Below are positions 3,976 to 58,586 of a stretch of DNA of 64,000 nucleotides, one piece after another. Source of the stretch: Arthrobacter sp. B1805 (GTDB lineage Bacteria; Actinomycetota; Actinomycetes; Actinomycetales; Micrococcaceae); the NCBI RefSeq assembly GCF_002929745.1, contig NZ_PJIQ01000012.1, positions 1 through 64,000 on the forward strand, given 5' to 3'. A program made the translations under genes and the position numbers. Numbering within the stretch: the first letter of the stretch is position 1; every line of letters begins with the position of its first letter. Under the pieces are notes generated by a model. It made no database searches, had not been told where the DNA came from, and saw only the letters and a list, made by a program, of their open reading frames with translations.

Positions 3976-4005
3976 TTGGGACTGCCCGCCTCATCAGGCT
4001 AGGAT
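3976..4005 (+). promoter_or_regulatory. Promoter of the DUF177-rpmF-rnc-mutM operon
   Basis: TTGGGA (3976-3981), an 18-base spacer and TAGGAT (4000-4005) form a good sigma-70-like promoter. It lies about 33 bases before the proposed ATT start at 4039, leaving room for the AGGAG at 4029-4033. Confidence 0.6.
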
Positions 4006-4038
4006 GGTACGTCGGTCATATGTTCTACAGGAGTCACC

Positions 4039-4629
4039 ATTAAAAGCGATCTCAGTTCGCCTTTGACTTTCAGTGTCAAGGATCTCGGACGCAGTCCGGG
4101 AAGCATGCGGACAATCGAAGAACATGTACCGGCGCCCAAGGACTTCGGAGTCGCGCTGATCGGCGTGCAGGAGGGTTCCGAGATGGAGCTCGACCTGCGG
4201 TTCGAATCGGTGCACGAGGGAATCCTGGTGTCGGGAACGGCGAACGTCGAGGTAACCGGCGAGTGCGGCCGTTGCCTGGAGCCACTGCGGTTCGACCGCG
4301 AGGTGGACCTCCAGGAGCTCTTCTTCTACAGCGACTCCGAGTCGCTGTCGGTGGAAGAGGAAGAAGAACAGCACAGGGTGGAGAACGATTCGGTCGATCT
4401 GGAGCCCGTGCTGCGGGACGCGGTGGTCACATCGCTGCCTTTCCAGCCGGTGTGCCGGGAGGATTGCAAGGGCCTGTGCTCCGAATGTGGAGCCCAGCTC
4501 AATGATGATCCGGACCACCACCACGAAGTTTTGGACCCTCGCTGGTCAGCCCTCGCAGGGTTGGCGGGCACCGCCGCAGAGAACGACGCGGCACCAAAGT
4601 CAGAGTCAGACGAGAGAGAAGAGAGTTAG
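4039..4629 (+). CDS. DUF177 (YceD) family protein
   Basis: 196 residues. The family is found next to rpmF in most bacteria and is linked to 23S rRNA processing in some; biochemical function is not settled. Cysteine motifs are clear: CGRCLEP, then [13 protein letters not shown], which may bind zinc. Starts: no ATG, GTG or TTG lies between the upstream in-frame stop (4000) and TTG 4063. ATT 4039 sits 5 bases after a strong AGGAG and gives a product starting [16 protein letters not shown] after the initiator; TTG 4063 has no ribosome site. I therefore annotate ATT as the start. First gene of an operon with rpmF, rnc and mutM. Confidence 0.88.
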
Positions 4630-4631
4630 CC

Positions 4632-4835
4632 GTGGCTGTCCCGAAGCGGAAGATGTCCCGCGCGAATACCCGTGCACGCCGGTCCCAGTGGAAGGCAACC
4701 GCCCCCAAGCTGGTCAAGACCCTCGAGAACGGTCGCGTCACCTACAGCCTCGCCCACCAGGCCAAGGTTGTCACCGATTCAGCCGGTACCCCGCTGTTCC
4801 TTGAGTACAAGGGCCGCAAGGTAGCCGACGTCTGA
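4632..4835 (+). CDS. rpmF: 50S ribosomal protein L32
   Basis: 67 residues starting [20 protein letters not shown], a typical actinobacterial L32. GTG start 2 bases after the stop of the DUF177 gene, with GAGAGA-type purines upstream. Structural protein of the large subunit. The conserved order DUF177-rpmF-rnc supports the call. The four zinc cysteines of some L32 forms are absent, as in other C-minus versions. Confidence 0.97.
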
Positions 4836-4908
4836 CAACGGACCGTGACCCGCTCGGGCTTCCTGCCTGAGTGGGCTTCCGTCCGATGCTGGATCAGCTG
4901 ATGCGGTT

Positions 4909-5673
4909 GTGAAGAATACAGCAGAACTCACGAAGCGTCTCGGTGTCGATATCGACACCGAGACGCTTCGTCTTGCCCTGACGCACCGGTCCTACGCCTA
5001 CGAGAAGGGCGGCATACCCACGAACGAACGCCTCGAGTTCCTGGGCGATTCGGTGTTGGGTCTTGCGGTCACCGATGCCCTGTACAGGGACAACCCCGGC
5101 CTGTCCGAGGGTGAGCTCGCCAAGCGGCGATCCGCGGTCGTCAGCACGAAGGCACTCGCAGGCGTGGCGCGCAGCCTCGACCTCGGCAGCCACGTGCTGC
5201 TGGGCCAGGGGGAGAAGCTCACCAACGGACGGGACAAGGCGTCCATCCTTGCAGACACCATGGAAGCGGTCATCGGTGCCGCCTATCTGAGCCACGGCAT
5301 CGAGACTGCACGCGCCATGGTCATGCGGCTGATTGCGCCCTTGCTGCGCGACTCCGCGATCCTCGGTGAGGGCACCGATTGGAAGACCCGGATCCAGGAG
5401 ACGGCCGCCGGTCGGCGCCTGGGCCCGATCGACTACCAGGTAGAGGGAACAGGCCCCGACCACGCGCGCACCTTCACGGCGCGCCTGGTGATCGGCGGCG
5501 TCGAGTACGGATCGGGATGCGGCCATTCCAAGAAAGAGGCCGAGCAGGCGGCGGCCGCAGAGTCCTGGAAGCTCCTCTCGGACCGTCCGGCGAATCCGGT
5601 TGGCGGTGATCCCGCCGGAGCCCAGCAGGCAGACGGCGAGCCGGCCGGAGCCCAGCAGGCAGACAGGGCCTGA
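4909..5673 (+). CDS. rnc: Ribonuclease III
   Basis: Double-strand-specific endoribonuclease that matures rRNA and cuts structured mRNAs. 254 residues: RNase III domain about 1-150 with signature NERLEFLGDSVLG and the second acidic motif DTMEAVIGA, then a dsRNA-binding domain about 155-225 (DWKTRIQETA, GCGHSKKEAEQAAA). The tail carries a repeated PAGAQQAD segment. GTG start at 4909. The stop is followed directly by mutM. Codons 8-21 form a perfect 42-bp palindrome at DNA level (4930-4971), listed separately, which could make the mRNA a substrate for its own product. Confidence 0.96.
   Translation: MKNTAELTKRLGVDIDTETLRLALTHRSYAYEKGGIPTNERLEFLGDSVLGLAVTDALYRDNPGLSEGELAKRRSAVVSTKALAGVARSLDLGSHVLLGQGEKLTNGRDKASILADTMEAVIGAAYLSHGIETARAMVMRLIAPLLRDSAILGEGTDWKTRIQETAAGRRLGPIDYQVEGTGPDHARTFTARLVIGGVEYGSGCGHSKKEAEQAAAAESWKLLSDRPANPVGGDPAGAQQADGEPAGAQQADRA
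4930..4971. repeat. Perfect 42-bp palindrome inside rnc codons 8-21
   Basis: Two 21-base arms with no spacer: the left arm starts ACGAAGCGTC and the right arm ends GACGCTTCGT. Because the arms are codon-aligned, both strands encode the same peptide (TKRLGVDIDTETLR). In RNA it would fold into a stem of about 19 bp with an AUAU loop, 21 bases after the start codon. See findings. Confidence 0.95.
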
Positions 5674-6636
5674 GTGCCCGAGCTGCCCGAGGTCGAGGTG
5701 GTCCGACGCGGACTGGTCCGTTGGGCCGCGGGCCGCAGCATCGAGGCGGTGGACGTGCTCGATCCCCGGTCCCTGCGGAGGCACGTCCTCGGCGCCGAGG
5801 ATTTCGTGGGCAACCTGACGGGCGCCCGTATCCGCGATGTCGTGCGCCGGGGGAAATTCCTCTGGATGACGCTCGGGGACCCGACCCGGGCGCACCCCCA
5901 GCCGCGGGACGCGCTGATGTCCCATCTCGGCATGAGCGGACAACTGCTCATCGAAGAACCGGACGCCCCGACCGAGAAGCACCTCAAGGTCCGCCTCAGG
6001 CTCTCCGCCGCCTTCGACGAGGAGGGTGGACGGCTGCCGACCGAGCTACGGTTCGTCGATCAGCGGATCTTCGGCGGCATGTTCGTCACCGACCTCGAAC
6101 CGACCGCCGATGGACAACCTGGTGGACTTGGATCGGAGAACCTGGCCCTGATACCGCGCCAGGCTGCGCACATCGCGAGGGATCCGCTCGATCCCGCGTT
6201 CTCCGTCGAGAGCTTCCACCGGCGGTTGCGGGAGCGCCGGACGGGACTGAAGCGCGCCCTCCTCGACCAGGGCCTCATCTCGGGGATCGGCAACATCTAC
6301 GCGGACGAGGCGCTCTGGCTCGCGAAGATGCACTATGCCCGTCCCACCGACACGATGCGCCGGCCTGACACAGTCAGGATCATCGATGCCGTGACGGCCG
6401 TCATGGTGCGTGCCCTCGACGCGGGTGGCACCAGTTTCGACTCGCTGTACGTGAACGTCAACGGAGCGTCGGGATACTTCGCGCGTGAGCTCGAAGCCTA
6501 TGGGCGCGCGGGGCACTACTGCCGCCGGTGCCTGGACGAGGGCAGGCAGACGGCCATGCGTAGGGAGTCCTTCATGAACCGTTCCTCGTTCCTGTGCCCG
6601 TTCTGCCAGCCCAGGCCGCGCAACGCCAGGATGTAG
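5674..6636 (+). CDS. mutM: Formamidopyrimidine-DNA glycosylase
   Basis: Base-excision repair glycosylase/AP lyase for 8-oxoguanine and ring-opened purines. 320 residues beginning [13 protein letters not shown] after the initiator (Pro is the catalytic nucleophile, Glu the second residue). It also has the helix-two-turn-helix segment [21 protein letters not shown] and a C-terminal zinc finger (CRRCLDEG and CPFCQP). GTG start directly after the rnc stop. The order rnc-mutM is usual in actinobacteria. Confidence 0.96.
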
Positions 6637-6759: not shown

Positions 6760-6946
6760 TCTGCCTAACCCTGTCGATGAGGATGGACCGTTCGCACACC
6801 ACGTTCGACAGGGGCGGGGGAACCGATAGCGGGCTCGTTCCACGAGTCCTAGGGGTAAAGACGCGCGTAGACCAGCTTTGGGGCGGTGGTCTGCAGGCAA
6901 GGCGTCCGGATGTCCCATCCGAACCCGACAGCTAACTTCGCAGGCA
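6760..6946 (+). promoter_or_regulatory. c-di-AMP riboswitch (ydaO/yuaA type)
   Basis: The leader of the LysM-NlpC/P60 gene carries hallmarks of the ydaO-yuaA class. There is a 9-bp stem (6769-6777 with 6805-6813), then the GGGGGAACCGA segment (from about 6816), and near the 3' end the conserved GAACCCGACAGCTAAC followed by TTCGCAGGC (about 6921-6945). The class binds cyclic di-AMP and in actinobacteria commonly precedes secreted wall hydrolases. Boundaries are approximate; identification rests on the conserved blocks and on the downstream gene type. Confidence 0.85.
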
Positions 6947-6963
6947 TTGGGAAAGGCAACAGC

Positions 6964-12493: not shown

Positions 12494-12744
12494 ATTCCCT
12501 GCCTCGTCAACTGGTCAGCGCCGGTGGGTGGCCGTGAAGGACCCACGGATGGATCGGCCTGGACGCCTCTGGATGCTGCTTGATACTTCGTGCTACCGCT
12601 GAAACTTCAGTAAGCCTACTTCTTAACGCGCAGCCCGGTCACTCGGGAATCCTGGCGTTCGCCGTCTTGCATGCCTCATGCCCTGCATGGTCGGTGCGTT
12701 CCAGTAGATTGGGGAGGTCCCGTCCACCTGGAGATCCTGACACT

Positions 12745-15700
12745 GTGCATCTGAAGAGTCTAACCGTGCGAGGGTTCAAGTCTTTCGCCTCGGCGACCAC
12801 CTTCGACTTCGAACCCGGCGTCACCGCCGTCGTCGGTCCGAACGGTTCCGGCAAGTCCAACGTCGTCGACGCGCTCGCCTGGGTGATGGGGGAGCAGGGG
12901 GCCAAGACCCTGCGGGGCGGCAAGATGGAGGACGTCATCTTCGCCGGCACCTCGGGCCGGGCACCACTCGGGCGGGCGCAGGTGTCGCTCACCATCGACA
13001 ATTCGGACGGCGCGCTCCCGATCGAATACACCGAGGTCACCATCTCCCGCACGCTCTTCCGAGCGGGCGGCTCCGAGTACGCCATCAACGGCAAGAACTG
13101 CAGGCTGCTCGACATCCAGGAACTCCTCTCGGACTCGGGACTGGGCCGGGAGATGCACGTCATCGTCGGGCAGGGACAGCTCGACAAGGTGCTGCATGCC
13201 ACACCCGAGGACCGTCGCGGATTCATCGAGGAGGCCGCCGGGATCCTCAAGCACCGCCGTCGTCGCGAGAAGACCGTCCGCAAGCTGGACGCCATGCAGG
13301 CCAACCTTGCCCGGCTCTCGGACCTCACCGCCGAGTTGCGACGCCAGCTGACGCCGCTCGGGAAGCAGGCCGAGGTGGCGCGGCGCGCCCAGCAGGTGCA
13401 ATTCACCGTCCGTGATGCCCGCTCCCGCCTGCTCGCGGACGAGCTGGTGACGCTGCGGTCGAGCTTCGAACGCGACATCGCCGCCGAAGCCGCTCTGCAG
13501 GCGCGCCGTGACGAGGTCGAGAGGGCTCTCGGTGCGGGTCGGCAGCGCCAGGCCGAGCTCGAGCAGGCAGCGGCGGCCTCGGTTCCGGCACTCCAGCGCG
13601 CGAGGGACACGTGGTACGCCCTGTCCAGTGCGCGCGAGAAGCTCGCCGCGCTCGCTGCGCGGGCTGAGGACCGCGGCCACCTGCTCGGGCAGGGCGGTAC
13701 CGAGCCGGACCAGGGGCGCGATCCCGACCACCTCGACCGCCAGGCGGCTCGTGTCCGGATCGAGGTCGAAAGCCTACGGGACGAGGTCGCGTCTCTCGGG
13801 CGCGCACTCGAGGTGACACTCGACGGGCGCCGGGCGGCGGAGGAGGCATCGAGGGAAGAGGAGGCGAGGCTGGCGCGTCTGCTCCGGCTGGCCGCCGATC
13901 GACGGGAGGGTGAGGCGCGCGTCGCCGGGACGGTGGGAGCGGCACGGTCACGGGTCGAGGCGGCCGTTGCCGAGCTGGGCCGGCTGCGCGCGTCGATAGC
14001 GGCCGCGGAGGAGCGGCGCCGGACGGCCGAGCACGAATTCACCGCACTGGAGACCCAGGTTGCCGGTCATGAGGAGGGCGAGGAGGGCCTCGACGCCGAG
14101 TTCGAGGAGGCCTCCGCCGTCCTCCTGTCACTCGACGCGGAACTGGCCGGACTCGTCGAGGAGGAGCGGACAGCCGAGCGTGAGCGTGGTGCCCTTGCAG
14201 CCCGCCTCGGGGCCCAGCGCGAGGGCCTGCAGCAGCGTGACGGCTCAGGGGTACTCCTCGCAGCAGGGCTCGACGGTGTCTCGCAGCCGCTGGCCCAGCT
14301 CCTGCAGGTCGCTCCGGGATTCGAGAAGGCAGTGGCCGCAGCACTGTCCACTGCTGCCGACGCCGTCACCGTCGAGAGCGTAGCCGCCGCGGTTCAGGCC
14401 CTGGAACTGCTGAAGGCCGAGGATGCGGGGCAGGTGTCCCTCGTCGTCGCTCCGGTACGTGACGGCAGCTCGGGGGAGAGGGCGGTGTCACCGGTGTCGC
14501 CGGTGTCGCCGGTGTCGCCGTCGCCCGTCGCCGATGCCGCTGGAGCCAGGCCGGTCCTCTCGGTGGTGACCGTGCCGACGGCCCTTCAGCCCGCCGTCGA
14601 GGACCTGCTGGGCGGCATCGTCGTGGTCGCCGATCTTGCGGAGGCCCGCAGGGTCGTCGGCGATGGCGGTGCTGACGGCGGTGCTGATGGCGGTGCTGAT
14701 GGCGGTGCTGACGGCGGTGCTGACGGCGGCGCTGACGGTACTGGTGGCGCTGATGACGCGGGGGCCCTCGGGGGTGACGACGGCGGTGCCCGCCGTGGTG
14801 CATCGCTCGTGGCAGTGACGCGCGACGGCGACGTCCTGTCCCGGTATGCAGCCCGTGGCGGGACCCCTGGTGCTGCGGGCTACCTCGAGCTGCGCGCAGC
14901 TGCCGAGGAGACGGAAACGAAACTGGCCGGCGTCTCGGCGGCGATCGAGCGCTTGCGCTTCCGCCTGTCCGGAGTGAGAACCGCGCGGCAGGCGGCGCAG
15001 CACCGTGTCGACACCGCCCTGGAGCGACTCCACGAGTCCGATGCGCGCATGGCCGCCGTCGCGGAGAAGCTCGGACAACTGAACGCGACCTTGCGGTCCG
15101 CTTCGGGTGAGGCCGAACGACTCACCGCCCTCGTCCGGGTGGCCGAAGCGAACCTCGCACAGGAGGAGATCCGGCTGCAGGAGGCCACCCAGCGGTTGCA
15201 GGACCTGCAGGAGCAGCCCGTCGAGGGCGAGCCGTCGACCGAACAACGGGATGCGCTTCAGCGGGCCGCCGTCGATGCCCGGCAGGCCGAACTGGAGGCG
15301 CGCCTGGCCCTGCGTAGCCGGGAAGAACAACTGGCGGCGCTCGAGAACCGGGCGGCGTCCCTCGAGCGCGCTGCCCAGGCGGAGCGCCGGGCGCGCGAGC
15401 AAGCCGCAGAGAAGGCGAGGGTCCGCAGGGCGCAGGCGCTCATGGCGGCCGCCATCGCGAAGGCGGCACGCCGTGCCGAGCAGAGGGCTGCCGAGTCCAT
15501 CGCGGTAGCGGCCGACGAGCGTGACGCCTCCGAGCGCCTGCGTGAGCACCAGGACAGGGAACTGCAGGAAATCCGCAGGACGACGGCGGATCTCGGCACC
15601 GAACTGACGCGGCTGACCGACTCCGCCCACCGCGACGAACTCGCCCGCACCCAGCAGCGATTGAGGATCGAGGCGCTGGAGAACCGCTCGATCGAGGAGC

Positions 15701-16533
15701 TCGGGCTCACGCCGGACCACCTGGTCGACGAATTCGGTCCACACCTCCCCGTACCGGAGGACGTCGTCACCGGGGACAAGTGGGCAGTCCTGCGGGCACC
15801 GGTCGACGACGACGGCAATCCGGTACCCCAGGGCGTCCCGTTCGTGCGCGAGCAGCAGGAGAAGCGACTGAAGCGGGCGGAGCGGGATCTCGCGTCACTC
15901 GGCAAAGTGAATCCCCTCGCGCTCGAGGAATTCGCTGCGCTGGAGGAGCGGCACCAGTTCCTGAGCACCCAGCTCGCGGACCTGAAAGCCACGCGAAAGG
16001 ACCTGCTCGACATCATCCGCGAGGTCGACGAGCGCGTGGAGCAGGTCTTCACCGCCGCCTACCGGGACACGGCCGAGCAGTTCGAGCGCGTCTTCGGGAC
16101 GCTCTTCCCGGGCGGTGAGGGCCGCCTGGTCCTCACCGACCCGTCGGACATGCTCACGACGGGGATCGAGGTGGAGGCGAGGCCTGCGGGAAAGAAGATC
16201 AAGCGCCTGTCACTGCTGTCGGGCGGTGAGCGATCCCTGACGGCGGTGGCGCTCCTCGTGGCGATCTTCAAAGCCAGGCCCTCGCCGTTCTACGTGATGG
16301 ACGAGGTGGAAGCTGCGCTGGACGATACCAACCTCGGACGGCTCATCACCATCTTCAGGGAACTGCGGGAATCGAGCCAGCTCATCATCATCACGCACCA
16401 GAAACGCACGATGGAGGTCGCCGATGCGCTCTACGGCGTCACGATGCGCGGGGACGGCGTCTCGACCGTCATCAGCCAGCGCCTTGCCGCCGAGGTCGAA
16501 CAGGTCCTCGACGAGGGCGGCCCGCGCCGCTAG
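12745..16533 (+). CDS. smc: Chromosome segregation protein SMC
   Basis: 1262 residues. Walker A GPNGSGKSNVVDAL near residue 32, long coiled coils, a hinge around 500-690, and at the C-terminus the ABC signature LSLLSGGERSLTAVALL and Walker B FYVMDEVEAALDD. It forms the condensin ring with ScpA/ScpB and organises the chromosome. GTG 12745 gives the canonical start HLKSLTVRGFKSF after the initiator; the longer frame is not conserved. A -10-like TAGATT lies at 12705-12710. The hinge contains two low-complexity inserts from DNA tandem repeats (see repeats). The gene ends sharing a CTAG with the convergent MFS gene. Confidence 0.97.
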   Translation: MHLKSLTVRGFKSFASATTFDFEPGVTAVVGPNGSGKSNVVDALAWVMGEQGAKTLRGGKMEDVIFAGTSGRAPLGRAQVSLTIDNSDGALPIEYTEVTISRTLFRAGGSEYAINGKNCRLLDIQELLSDSGLGREMHVIVGQGQLDKVLHATPEDRRGFIEEAAGILKHRRRREKTVRKLDAMQANLARLSDLTAELRRQLTPLGKQAEVARRAQQVQFTVRDARSRLLADELVTLRSSFERDIAAEAALQARRDEVERALGAGRQRQAELEQAAAASVPALQRARDTWYALSSAREKLAALAARAEDRGHLLGQGGTEPDQGRDPDHLDRQAARVRIEVESLRDEVASLGRALEVTLDGRRAAEEASREEEARLARLLRLAADRREGEARVAGTVGAARSRVEAAVAELGRLRASIAAAEERRRTAEHEFTALETQVAGHEEGEEGLDAEFEEASAVLLSLDAELAGLVEEERTAERERGALAARLGAQREGLQQRDGSGVLLAAGLDGVSQPLAQLLQVAPGFEKAVAAALSTAADAVTVESVAAAVQALELLKAEDAGQVSLVVAPVRDGSSGERAVSPVSPVSPVSPSPVADAAGARPVLSVVTVPTALQPAVEDLLGGIVVVADLAEARRVVGDGGADGGADGGADGGADGGADGGADGTGGADDAGALGGDDGGARRGASLVAVTRDGDVLSRYAARGGTPGAAGYLELRAAAEETETKLAGVSAAIERLRFRLSGVRTARQAAQHRVDTALERLHESDARMAAVAEKLGQLNATLRSASGEAERLTALVRVAEANLAQEEIRLQEATQRLQDLQEQPVEGEPSTEQRDALQRAAVDARQAELEARLALRSREEQLAALENRAASLERAAQAERRAREQAAEKARVRRAQALMAAAIAKAARRAEQRAAESIAVAADERDASERLREHQDRELQEIRRTTADLGTELTRLTDSAHRDELARTQQRLRIEALENRSIEELGLTPDHLVDEFGPHLPVPEDVVTGDKWAVLRAPVDDDGNPVPQGVPFVREQQEKRLKRAERDLASLGKVNPLALEEFAALEERHQFLSTQLADLKATRKDLLDIIREVDERVEQVFTAAYRDTAEQFERVFGTLFPGGEGRLVLTDPSDMLTTGIEVEARPAGKKIKRLSLLSGGERSLTAVALLVAIFKARPSPFYVMDEVEAALDDTNLGRLITIFRELRESSQLIIITHQKRTMEVADALYGVTMRGDGVSTVISQRLAAEVEQVLDEGGPRR
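14485..14520 (+). repeat. Four 9-bp units in smc encoding (VSP)4
   Basis: GTGTCACCG followed by three copies of GTGTCGCCG, in frame, encoding VSPVSPVSPVSP. It lies within the hinge-domain region, about residues 581-592 of SMC. Confidence 0.9.
14665..14736 (+). repeat. Six 12-bp units in smc encoding (GGAD)6
   Basis: Six in-frame copies of GGCGGTGCTGAY (last copy GGCGGCGCTGAC), giving GGAD repeats at about residues 641-664. The flanks are also Gly/Asp rich. The unit keeps frame when copies are gained or lost, so length could vary between strains. Confidence 0.92.
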
Positions 16534-26848: not shown

Positions 26849-27094
26849 TTGCTGGCCGAAGCTCTGGAGCACCTCGTCCGCGGCATCGTGGACAACCCGG
26901 ACGACGTCCGGGTATCCGCGAAGAACAACCGCCGCGGTGAGACGCTCGAGGTCCGGGTCCATCAGGAGGACCTCGGCCGAGTGATCGGTCGCCAGGGCCG
27001 CACGGCGCGTGCCCTGCGTACCGTCGTCGCCGCCCTCGCGGACGGTGAGCCCGTACGGGTCGACGTCGTCGACACCGACCGCCGCCGGGGCTGA
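26849..27094 (+). CDS. khpA: KH-domain RNA-binding protein KhpA
   Basis: 81 residues, TTG start 1 base after rpsP. KH signature GRVIGRQGRTARALR with the GxxG loop (IGRQGR). The family binds mRNA and sRNA, often with KhpB. Its place between rpsP and rimM is the usual one in Gram-positives. Confidence 0.93.
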   Translation: MLAEALEHLVRGIVDNPDDVRVSAKNNRRGETLEVRVHQEDLGRVIGRQGRTARALRTVVAALADGEPVRVDVVDTDRRRG

Positions 27095-27125
27095 CCCCGC
27101 CCGGAGCTTCACGCCACCATTATTC

Positions 27126-27164
27126 GATCGGCCCCACCACCAGGACATGGCGGTGGGGCCGATC
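27126..27164 (+). terminator. Hairpin between khpA and rimM (attenuator candidate)
   Basis: 13-bp perfect stem GATCGGCCCCACC with GGTGGGGCCGATC, 13-base loop, no T tract. In a 166-base gap inside the rpsP operon it may reduce read-through to rimM-trmD or stabilise the upstream mRNA. Confidence 0.55.
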
Positions 27165-27260
27165 TCATGTCCCACCCGTGTCGGTACCTCCGACACCGCA
27201 CGTATCGACGCACGTATCACCGCACGGATCACTGAAGGCACAAGCAGCAGGAGCACCACC

Positions 27261-27836
27261 ATGGAAGTACTCGTTGCGAGGATCGGCAAGCCCCACGGCA
27301 TCCGGGGCGAGGTAACGGTCCAGCTGTTCACCGACGCGCCCGAGGACCGCTTCGAACCGGGCGAGACGTTCCGGGTCGAGGACGCCGTGGTGTCCGCCCT
27401 GACCGTCGCGAAGGCGCGATGGAACAAGGACATCCTGATCGTCGGCTTCGAGCAGGTGGCAGACCGCAACCAGGCCGAGACACTGCGCGGTGCCCGGCTC
27501 TTCATCGACAGTGACACGACGAGCGACGACGAGGACGACGCCTGGTACGAGCACGAACTCGTGGGGCTCGACGTCCGCGTCGACGGCGAGGCGGTCGGCA
27601 AGGTCACCGCACTGCGCACCATGGCCGTGCAGGATCTGCTGGTGGTCGAACTGGCCGACGGACACGAGGCCCTCGTGCCGTTCGTCGAAGCTATCGTGCC
27701 CGAGGTGAATGTCGTCGACGGCTTCGTGGTGGTCGTCCCGCCCGCAGGCCTGTTCGATCTCAACACCCCCGGCTCGAACCAGGCGCCCGACGACGGCGAC
27801 GGCATCGCCGCACCCGAGGGTGAGGCACGCCGCTAG
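27261..27836 (+). CDS. rimM: Ribosome maturation factor RimM
   Basis: 191 residues. N-terminal RimM barrel ([23 protein letters not shown]), then a PRC-barrel (about 95-170; [41 protein letters not shown]). Assists 30S head assembly with S19. ATG 27261 with CAGGAG upstream. Overlaps trmD by 1 base. Asp/Gly-rich tail. Confidence 0.94.
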
Positions 27837-51846: not shown

Positions 51847-51888
51847 AACGAGGTAAGCCCCGGACAGCTGTCCGGGGCTTACCTCGTT
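51847..51888. terminator. 42-bp perfect palindrome between gnd and cysE
   Basis: Two 21-base arms without spacer, starting AACGAGGTAAGCCCC. Between convergent genes; expected hairpin of about 19 bp. No T tract. Outer bases resemble the hairpin after glnK. Confidence 0.85.
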
Positions 51889-57832: not shown

Positions 57833-58237
57833 GGATGGGTCGACCAGGCGGTCGCGTTGGATGGTGTGCAAGCATCGATTCCACCGAGGAACGTCCGGGC
57901 TCCGCAGGGCAGGGTGGTGGGTAACGCCCACTCGGGGTAACCCGCAGGCCAGTGCCACAGAAAAGAAACCGCTGTCCGCAGCAGGCCTCGGCCCACGCAC
58001 GGGCAGTAAGGGTGAAAAGGTGGTGTAAGAGACCACCAGCGTGCCGGGTGACCGGCATGGCTCGGTAAACCCCACCCGGAGCAAGGCCAGACAGTGCGCG
58101 TTATCAGGGCTGCCCGCCCGAGTGCACGGGTAGGCCGCTGGAGGGCGTCGGCAACGGCGTCCGTAGATGGATGGCCGCCACTCGCGCGACGGTAACGGCG
58201 CGCGATGACAGAACCCGGCGTATCGGTCGGCCCATCC
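57833..58237 (+). ncRNA. rnpB: RNase P RNA, class A
   Basis: Ends pair as P1 (GGATGGG at 57833 with CCCATCC at 58231-58237). Conserved cores are visible: GAGGAACGTCCGGGCTCC, CAGTGCCACAGAAA, GGTAAACCCCACCCGGAGC, and GACAGAACCCGGCGTATC near the 3' end. Catalytic RNA that matures tRNA 5' ends. Long antisense open frames here have no coding support. Confidence 0.96.
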
Positions 58238-58586
58238 CATAATCCCTGCGGCGTCATGAAGCGGCCCCCCGTACCCGGTCTCAAGAGGTAGGGGGACCGC
58301 CCGGCGTCTATAGCCGCCTCAGGAGGGCATCGACCGCGATACTGCTGGGGGAACGACCGCGGGAAACCCTCCCGGAGACTATCTTCCGCCCACCCTCGTC
58401 GCGCGGCAACGTAATAGCTGCGGCTAAGCCATCGGTGAAATCGGGAACTCCGCGGGACCAGCCGATCATTGCTGAAGCGAACAATTATCGGTGTGCGGCG
58501 TGCGTTGGTCAAGGGGCCGTGAGAAGGAGCCGATCATTGGACTGCTCGGGCCGGTCCTCCTAGTCGTGCTCGGCTAGGGTGATCGG
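58238..58586. other. Intergenic region rnpB / MFS gene
   Basis: 349 bases. The words AGCCGATCATTG occur twice (about 58461 and 58530), a short direct repeat near the MFS start. TAGGGT (58575-58580) lies 6 bases before the ATG at 58587 and could give a leaderless transcript. No gene or clear rnpB terminator seen. Confidence 0.4.

Follow-up and report, generated by a model that had tools for sequence, protein, structure and literature searches.

In Streptomyces coelicolor, according to the accessible parts of the published accounts, RNase III (the product of absB, or rnc) acts on the transcript of its own operon (work of Xu, Huang and Cohen 2008, as related in PMC10126417 and PMC2936110), cutting it in two stem-loops, of which one precedes rnc and the other lies inside its cistron (PMC10126417), and rnc mRNA is raised in the mutant (PMC10126417, PMC2936110). 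In Staphylococcus aureus, as described in the available text of a further report, a hairpin within the rnc coding sequence is the target that the enzyme cuts, starting the decay of rnc mRNA, and conservation of this hairpin is stated among staphylococci (Lioliou et al. 2012, PMC3386247). The same source text relates that in Escherichia coli RNase III cuts the rncO stem-loop in its own mRNA, lowering its own synthesis (PMC3386247). For Streptomyces venezuelae without RNase J, the available part of the report describes a rise in the 3' half of rnc mRNA, which its authors read as decay following an internal RNase III cut (PMC12096830).

Here, we describe a hairpin formed by the opening codons of rnc within a 64-kb stretch of DNA from Arthrobacter sp. 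B1805 (the window; Table 1). As far as the available part of the source goes, the gene order rpmF-rnc found here is that of the S. coelicolor operon (PMC5775266), and both loci present an actinobacterial rnc behind rpmF. The S. aureus cut, as given in the accessible text, falls at U+296, within an irregular bulged helix a long way from the start (PMC3386247), whereas the window has a regular stem in codons 8-21. Similarly, while rncO of E. coli is described as lying in an untranslated leader, and thus carries no protein constraint, the window's hairpin is part of a coding sequence. In-frame palindromy and codon-by-codon covariation, both seen here, are absent from the available parts of the S. 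coelicolor accounts, and the titles and abstracts listed in searches of the open-licence literature contain no description of a conserved hairpin in the first rnc codons. The nearest solved relative of the encoded RNase III is 2a11. A scan of the in-frame stretch upstream of rnc, back to the stop, found no other ATG, GTG or TTG codon.

Table 1 Features of the rpmF-rnc-mutM locus, in positions of the window.
Feature	Position	Strand	Details
rpmF, ribosomal protein L32	4632..4835	+	TIGR01031 39.2 bits (cut-off 22.6); 5' neighbour of rnc
Second hairpin, rpmF-rnc gap	4839..4885	+	core 4849-4859 with 4865-4875; whole-gap z -4.35
rnc, RNase III	4909..5673	+	254 aa, GTG start; TIGR02191 222.7 bits (cut-off 166.25)
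Stem, 5' arm	4930..4948	+	codons 8 to 14 (first base); 19 pairs in the MFE fold
Apical loop	4949..4952	+	two inner palindrome pairs open in the RNA fold; loop letters variable
Stem, 3' arm	4953..4971	+	codon 15 (last base) to codon 21
Codon 22 (CTT)	4972..4974	+	frozen outside the helix; CTT in 88/89 distinct genes and 162/173 family loci
mutM/fpg	5674..6636	+	NF002211 292.9 bits; adjoins the rnc stop directly

A reading of this DNA made earlier from its letters (the sequence-only reading) had pointed to a perfect 42-bp palindrome with 21-base arms in codons 8-21 of rnc, to a stem of about 19 bp beginning 21 nt past the start, and to a perfection beyond chance; all three points were borne out. 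The palindrome, at 4930-4971, consists of ACGAAGCGTCTCGGTGTCGAT and, directly after it, the exact reverse complement of these letters, the two arms (4930-4950 and 4951-4971) being 100% complementary over 21 nt each with a spacer of 0 nt. Folded as RNA, the 42-mer gives 19 pairs and a 4-nt loop at -37.3 kcal/mol (z -9.6, with none of 200 dinucleotide shuffles as low), and the stem starts 21 nt past the first base of the rnc start codon. When 5908 coding windows of 54 nt were compared across the 53 genes called by our own ORF script within the 64 kb, the rnc hairpin ranked lowest both in codon-shuffle z (-6.4) and in energy. A chance origin is rejected by this ranking together with the dinucleotide-shuffle fold. 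A dispersed motif was likewise rejected, as a degenerate hairpin pattern has a single match in the window's assembly; an 11-base half of the palindrome occurs five times, two of these being the two arms of the rnc palindrome itself. A scan of the whole window with Rfam 15 at gathering score gave no match in rnc, and admitting E values up to 1 across 4000-6000 produced a sole match, to mir-4523, which was sub-threshold and lies at 5356-5432.

Elsewhere in the window, the Rfam families include a c-di-AMP riboswitch (RF00379) at 6787-6961, with 48 bits against a gathering threshold of 38, and a class A RNase P RNA (RF00010, 286.9 bits) at 57836-58238. One other perfect, loopless 21+21 palindrome is present, at 51847-51888, outside the called genes. 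Strong hairpins were also noted at 27126-27164 (z -5.7), upstream of rimM, where the ORF called at 27009-27836 is over-long and the RimM match begins at residue 87, and at about 16108-16170 (z -5.5), within the 3' part of smc (12580-16533).

We followed the element through the window's family, here termed f1, in which a protein search identified rnc in 147 of 149 genomes, with 32 of 32 genera represented. With at least one rnc 5' end read per genus, pairing is present in all 32. In one set of f1 rows, each has at least 14 Watson-Crick pairs of the 21, except for one locus (L150), which has a downstream indel and was placed by hand with a one-codon shift, after which it pairs; many relatives have about 16-17 pairs and a loop of 6 nt. 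The codons of the arms are also largely fixed. Counting identical sequences once, the 110 rnc loci read gave 89 distinct genes, among which Arg10 is CGT, Leu11 CTC and Val13 GTC in 89/89 each and, on the 3' side, Thr19 is ACG in 87/87, Leu20 CTT in 88/89 and Arg21 CGT in 88/88. Mean codon entropy is 0.31 in the nine conserved-residue columns of the hairpin versus 1.12 in 110 others (Mann-Whitney p 5e-5), and this synonymous freeze is limited to codons 9-13 and 16-22, with just single columns elsewhere in rnc. Codon 22 falls outside the helix; an extension of the lower stem was sought to account for its freeze and yielded no single consistent pairing, and the codon is perhaps part of a protein contact or of a lower stem. 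Among the records, locus L033 (WNZI01000002.1) is titled Vibrio cholerae 35D, but its rnc is of the Arthrobacter type (91% identical) and has the hairpin; the record is mislabelled.

The sequence-only reading had suggested aligning relatives at the nucleotide level, and this was done in an alignment, A1, of 99 rows (98 distinct) from the window's family only, giving 1862 cells. Compensatory changes were found in both arms: the 98 distinct rows are paired in 93.5% of cells, 12 of the 19 pairs have changed on both sides, and cells changed on both sides number 81 compared with 23.7 in column shuffles (0/500 as high). Sliding the partner by one to three columns reduced pairing to 29-45%. Since the rows are related, column shuffles overstate the significance; the slid controls and the tree described below are free of that fault. 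A peptide kept where the pairing is lost, the outcome that the sequence-only reading had named as speaking against it, is not the pattern of these relatives: it is the peptide that changes while the pairing persists. Its further suggestion, that RNA folding constrains the peptide, gains support from the same alignments, the pairing dictating the peptide in part.

This was followed codon by codon in 117 distinct 42-mers drawn from f1 and two further families of its order. All three base pairs are kept in 114 of the 117 for codons 9x20, 115 for 10x19, 117 for 11x18, 110 for 12x17 (55 in shuffles) and 112 for 13x16. At codons 10/19 the helix is met with the residue pairs Arg-Thr, Lys-Leu, Ser-Thr, His-Met, Arg-Ala, Gln-Leu, Ser-Ala and Glu-Leu, and at codons 12/17 with the combinations GGG-CCC, GGT-GCC, GGC-GCC, GGT-ACC and GGA-TCC. 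A FastTree tree of 168 sequences, built on the 80 codons downstream of the hairpin (the hairpin itself being left out), implies at least 28 changes at the third base of codon 12 and at least 24 at the first base of codon 17, whilst the second base of codon 18 has switched back and forth at least 26 times, the two letters concerned both being able to pair with U. In this self-complementary frame codon n covaries with codon 29-n, so that amino acids that do not touch would coevolve via the mRNA helix.

Beyond f1, a covariance model (R1) was searched against a sample of 198 genomes of the order, with matches in all 15 f1 genomes and all 14 genomes of a second family, f6, and with every match of at least 30 bits at rnc. 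A class-level covariance-model scan matched 59 of 394 genomes at E <= 0.01, those above 45 bits being confined to f1, f6 and one f19 genome. Register-free folding, scored as a codon-shuffle z below -3, identified hairpins in 24/25 f1, 10/11 f6, 7/8 f8 (like f6, another family of the same order) and 4/6 f7 loci, together with 3/9 in f19, 1/3 in f5, 1/5 in f9 and 0/42 in the remaining ten families of the order; the f7 stem is shifted by one codon and the f5 stem starts earlier. In class-level folding of 60 loci (at most 12 distinct per family, a locus being counted if any of eight windows passes -3), positives were 8/9 in f37, 2/5 in f45, 1/9 in f22, 0/5 in f36, 1/5 in f38 and 1/5 in f35, with a downstream background that is above zero, amounting to 1.7 window-equivalents for the nine f37 loci. 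We take f37 to be Streptomyces, a guess made from the AbsB peptide. Its hairpin, with arms CTGGAAGGGCGGCTCGG..CTCGAGTCCGCCCTTCTGG (also cited as CTGGAAGGGCGG..CCGCCCTTCTGG), occupies the same segment and differs from that of the window in sequence and register. By these folds, the segment hosts different or register-shifted hairpins in further families, one of them Streptomyces-like. The element is not universal, because rnc of many families is without a hairpin; a pairing excess was found, for example, in 0/10 f13, 0/8 f20 and 0/6 f14 loci. Because the hairpin is missing from many actinobacterial rnc genes, these must be controlled differently or not at all.

Taken as a whole, these patterns show that the palindrome is an RNA element, in which codons 8-21 form an mRNA hairpin of 16 to 21 bp kept by selection. 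Fold energy, covariation and the mRNA-strand bias set out below agree on a stable double-stranded stem-loop inside the RNase III transcript, and the gene is the same in all relatives used. We put the probability that this hairpin is an in-gene operator for RNase III at about three in four; the gene that holds it encodes the one enzyme that takes stems of this kind as substrate, and hairpins of other sequence or register recur in this segment in other families. By analogy with S. coelicolor and S. aureus, the hairpin would be cut by RNase III itself: enzyme in excess over rRNA and other substrates would bind this stem, close to the beginning of the rnc coding sequence, and cut it, severing the start region from the remaining message, so that RNase III synthesis would stop and the 3' piece would be exposed to decay, whereas frequent translation would keep the stem melted and protected. 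Binding, cutting and the feedback effect are each what we infer for this locus. Two helical turns are often quoted for full RNase III substrates, and the stems of about 16-17 pairs in the relatives, being shorter than this, speak against an operator.

The rpmF-rnc gap holds a second hairpin (Table 1), for which a terminator-like T run was sought and none found. In the 45 of 87 rows compared, near relatives have comparable hairpins with other sequences here, so that in the window and these relatives a stem-loop stands both upstream of rnc and within it; other Arthrobacter gaps are just 24-41 nt long. From this distribution, the gap hairpin is lineage-limited and lies outside the conserved element. 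It is possible that it is a second RNase III site or the 3' end of rpmF.

Of the alternatives to an RNase III operator, we consider the one that survives best to be unlikely, namely that the helix is functional without cleavage, acting in translation regulation, in co-translational folding through a pause just after initiation, or in cut-free binding of RNase III or another dsRNA-binding protein. Covariation marks a helix and is silent on its partner, and another dsRNA-binding protein or an effect on translation would look alike. In f1, moreover, 100 of the 122 distinct segments have an ATG, GTG or TTG at a distance of exactly seven codons upstream of the stem, as might be expected of an element tied to initiation. 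However, the nearest ATG or GTG is 4, 9 or 10 codons away in f6, 8 to 17 in f8, and, in f37, 10 in one locus and 19 to 31 in ten. The seven-codon spacing is thus absent in other families, indicating that the element keeps to the protein segment and is not tied to initiation, and weakening translation-start spacing as a cause. A role without cleavage also has to account for the fact that, of all genes, it is rnc that carries the element, with no match of the pattern model at 30 bits or more outside rnc in the 198 genomes of the order.

A second alternative is a DNA palindrome serving a dimeric protein, recombination or replication, as the perfect symmetry of the window and a few relatives might suggest. 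Among the cells of columns 12-27 we counted 1428 Watson-Crick pairs, 113 G.U, 3 A.C and 24 other, and the G.U sites break the DNA symmetry in many relatives. An A.C in the mRNA corresponds to a G.U on the opposite strand, and A.C is nearly absent. Codons 11/18, which account for 42 of the 113 G.U cells, offer no clean test of strand because Leu fixes U there; clean cases among the 117 sequences are codons 9/20, where GAG-CTT occurs 17 times and AAG-CTC 0/117, and codons 12/17, where GGT-GCC occurs 30 times and GGC-ACC 0/117. It follows from the 113 to 3 ratio and the clean cases that the mRNA strand is constrained, and not DNA symmetry or an antisense RNA. In addition, the letters change between families as the pairing persists, and the pattern is single in the assembly. 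We reject the DNA reading, whose chances we hold to be very slim, on these lineage-specific letter changes and the G.U/A.C asymmetry, and selection, on the evidence of the alignments, acts on the mRNA helix.

We next weighed the possibility that the pairing is a by-product of the peptide, of codon bias or of an overlapping antisense gene. Written in GC-rich codons, the peptide Leu-Gly-Val-Asp/Ile-Asp-x-Glu-x-Leu is in part self-complementary and by itself gives, in codon shuffles, about 11 of 17 pairs on average, and a long antisense ORF of 362 codons (4894-5982) overlaps rnc. To set the peptide aside, codons were drawn from family usage with the peptide fixed and the 17 inner pairs were scored, taking p <= 0.01 as significant; loci L276 and L283, which the search expression did not read, are absent from these counts. 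In f1 this gave 16.4/17 pairs observed versus 10.9 expected (z 4.0), with 140 of 145 distinct genes significant and five without a significant excess. The excess was likewise found in 14/14 f6 genes and 8/9 f8 genes (one being without it), as compared with 2/67 across 14 further families in this order; families of the order that have a similar peptide show no excess. The f6 loci were first obtained through R1, yet their excess is not a selection effect, because all 14 f6 genomes of the sample match that model. Peptide and codon bias alone are therefore rejected by the peptide-fixed null, and the antisense gene by the local nature of the synonymous freeze, since a gene of 362 codons would not give a freeze limited to codons 9-13 and 16-22; we give the by-product explanation almost no credence. 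Finally, an arrangement in which the important RNA comes from the other strand, for which the available part of an S. coelicolor study reports an RNA antisense to rnc (PMC5775266), is highly improbable given that G.U favours the mRNA strand by 113 to 3, with the clean codons 9/20 and 12/17 in agreement.

Returning to the RNase III operator, the distribution across families raises a broader possibility, on which we are evenly divided: that in the N-terminal segment of actinobacterial RNase III the protein sequence is written by an RNA operator, which would have been repeatedly lost, rebuilt and codon-shifted (with the same centre in f1, f6 and f8, a codon shift in f7, an earlier position in f5 and different hairpins in f45 and the Streptomyces-like f37), each version being a self-cleavage switch.

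Feedback by RNase III that runs through the enzyme's own coding sequence is known from individual species. The element described here is defined by evolution alone, as an RNA helix that a housekeeping enzyme has kept through double substitutions altering its amino acids, across 32 genera and two more families, and re-registered versions of the hairpin exist beyond the three families. The natural combinations offer exact compensatory mutants for tests of autoregulation. The element is also a clear-cut example of a protein sequence steered by RNA structure, and it cautions that residues seen to coevolve in protein alignments can bear the imprint of pairing in the mRNA.
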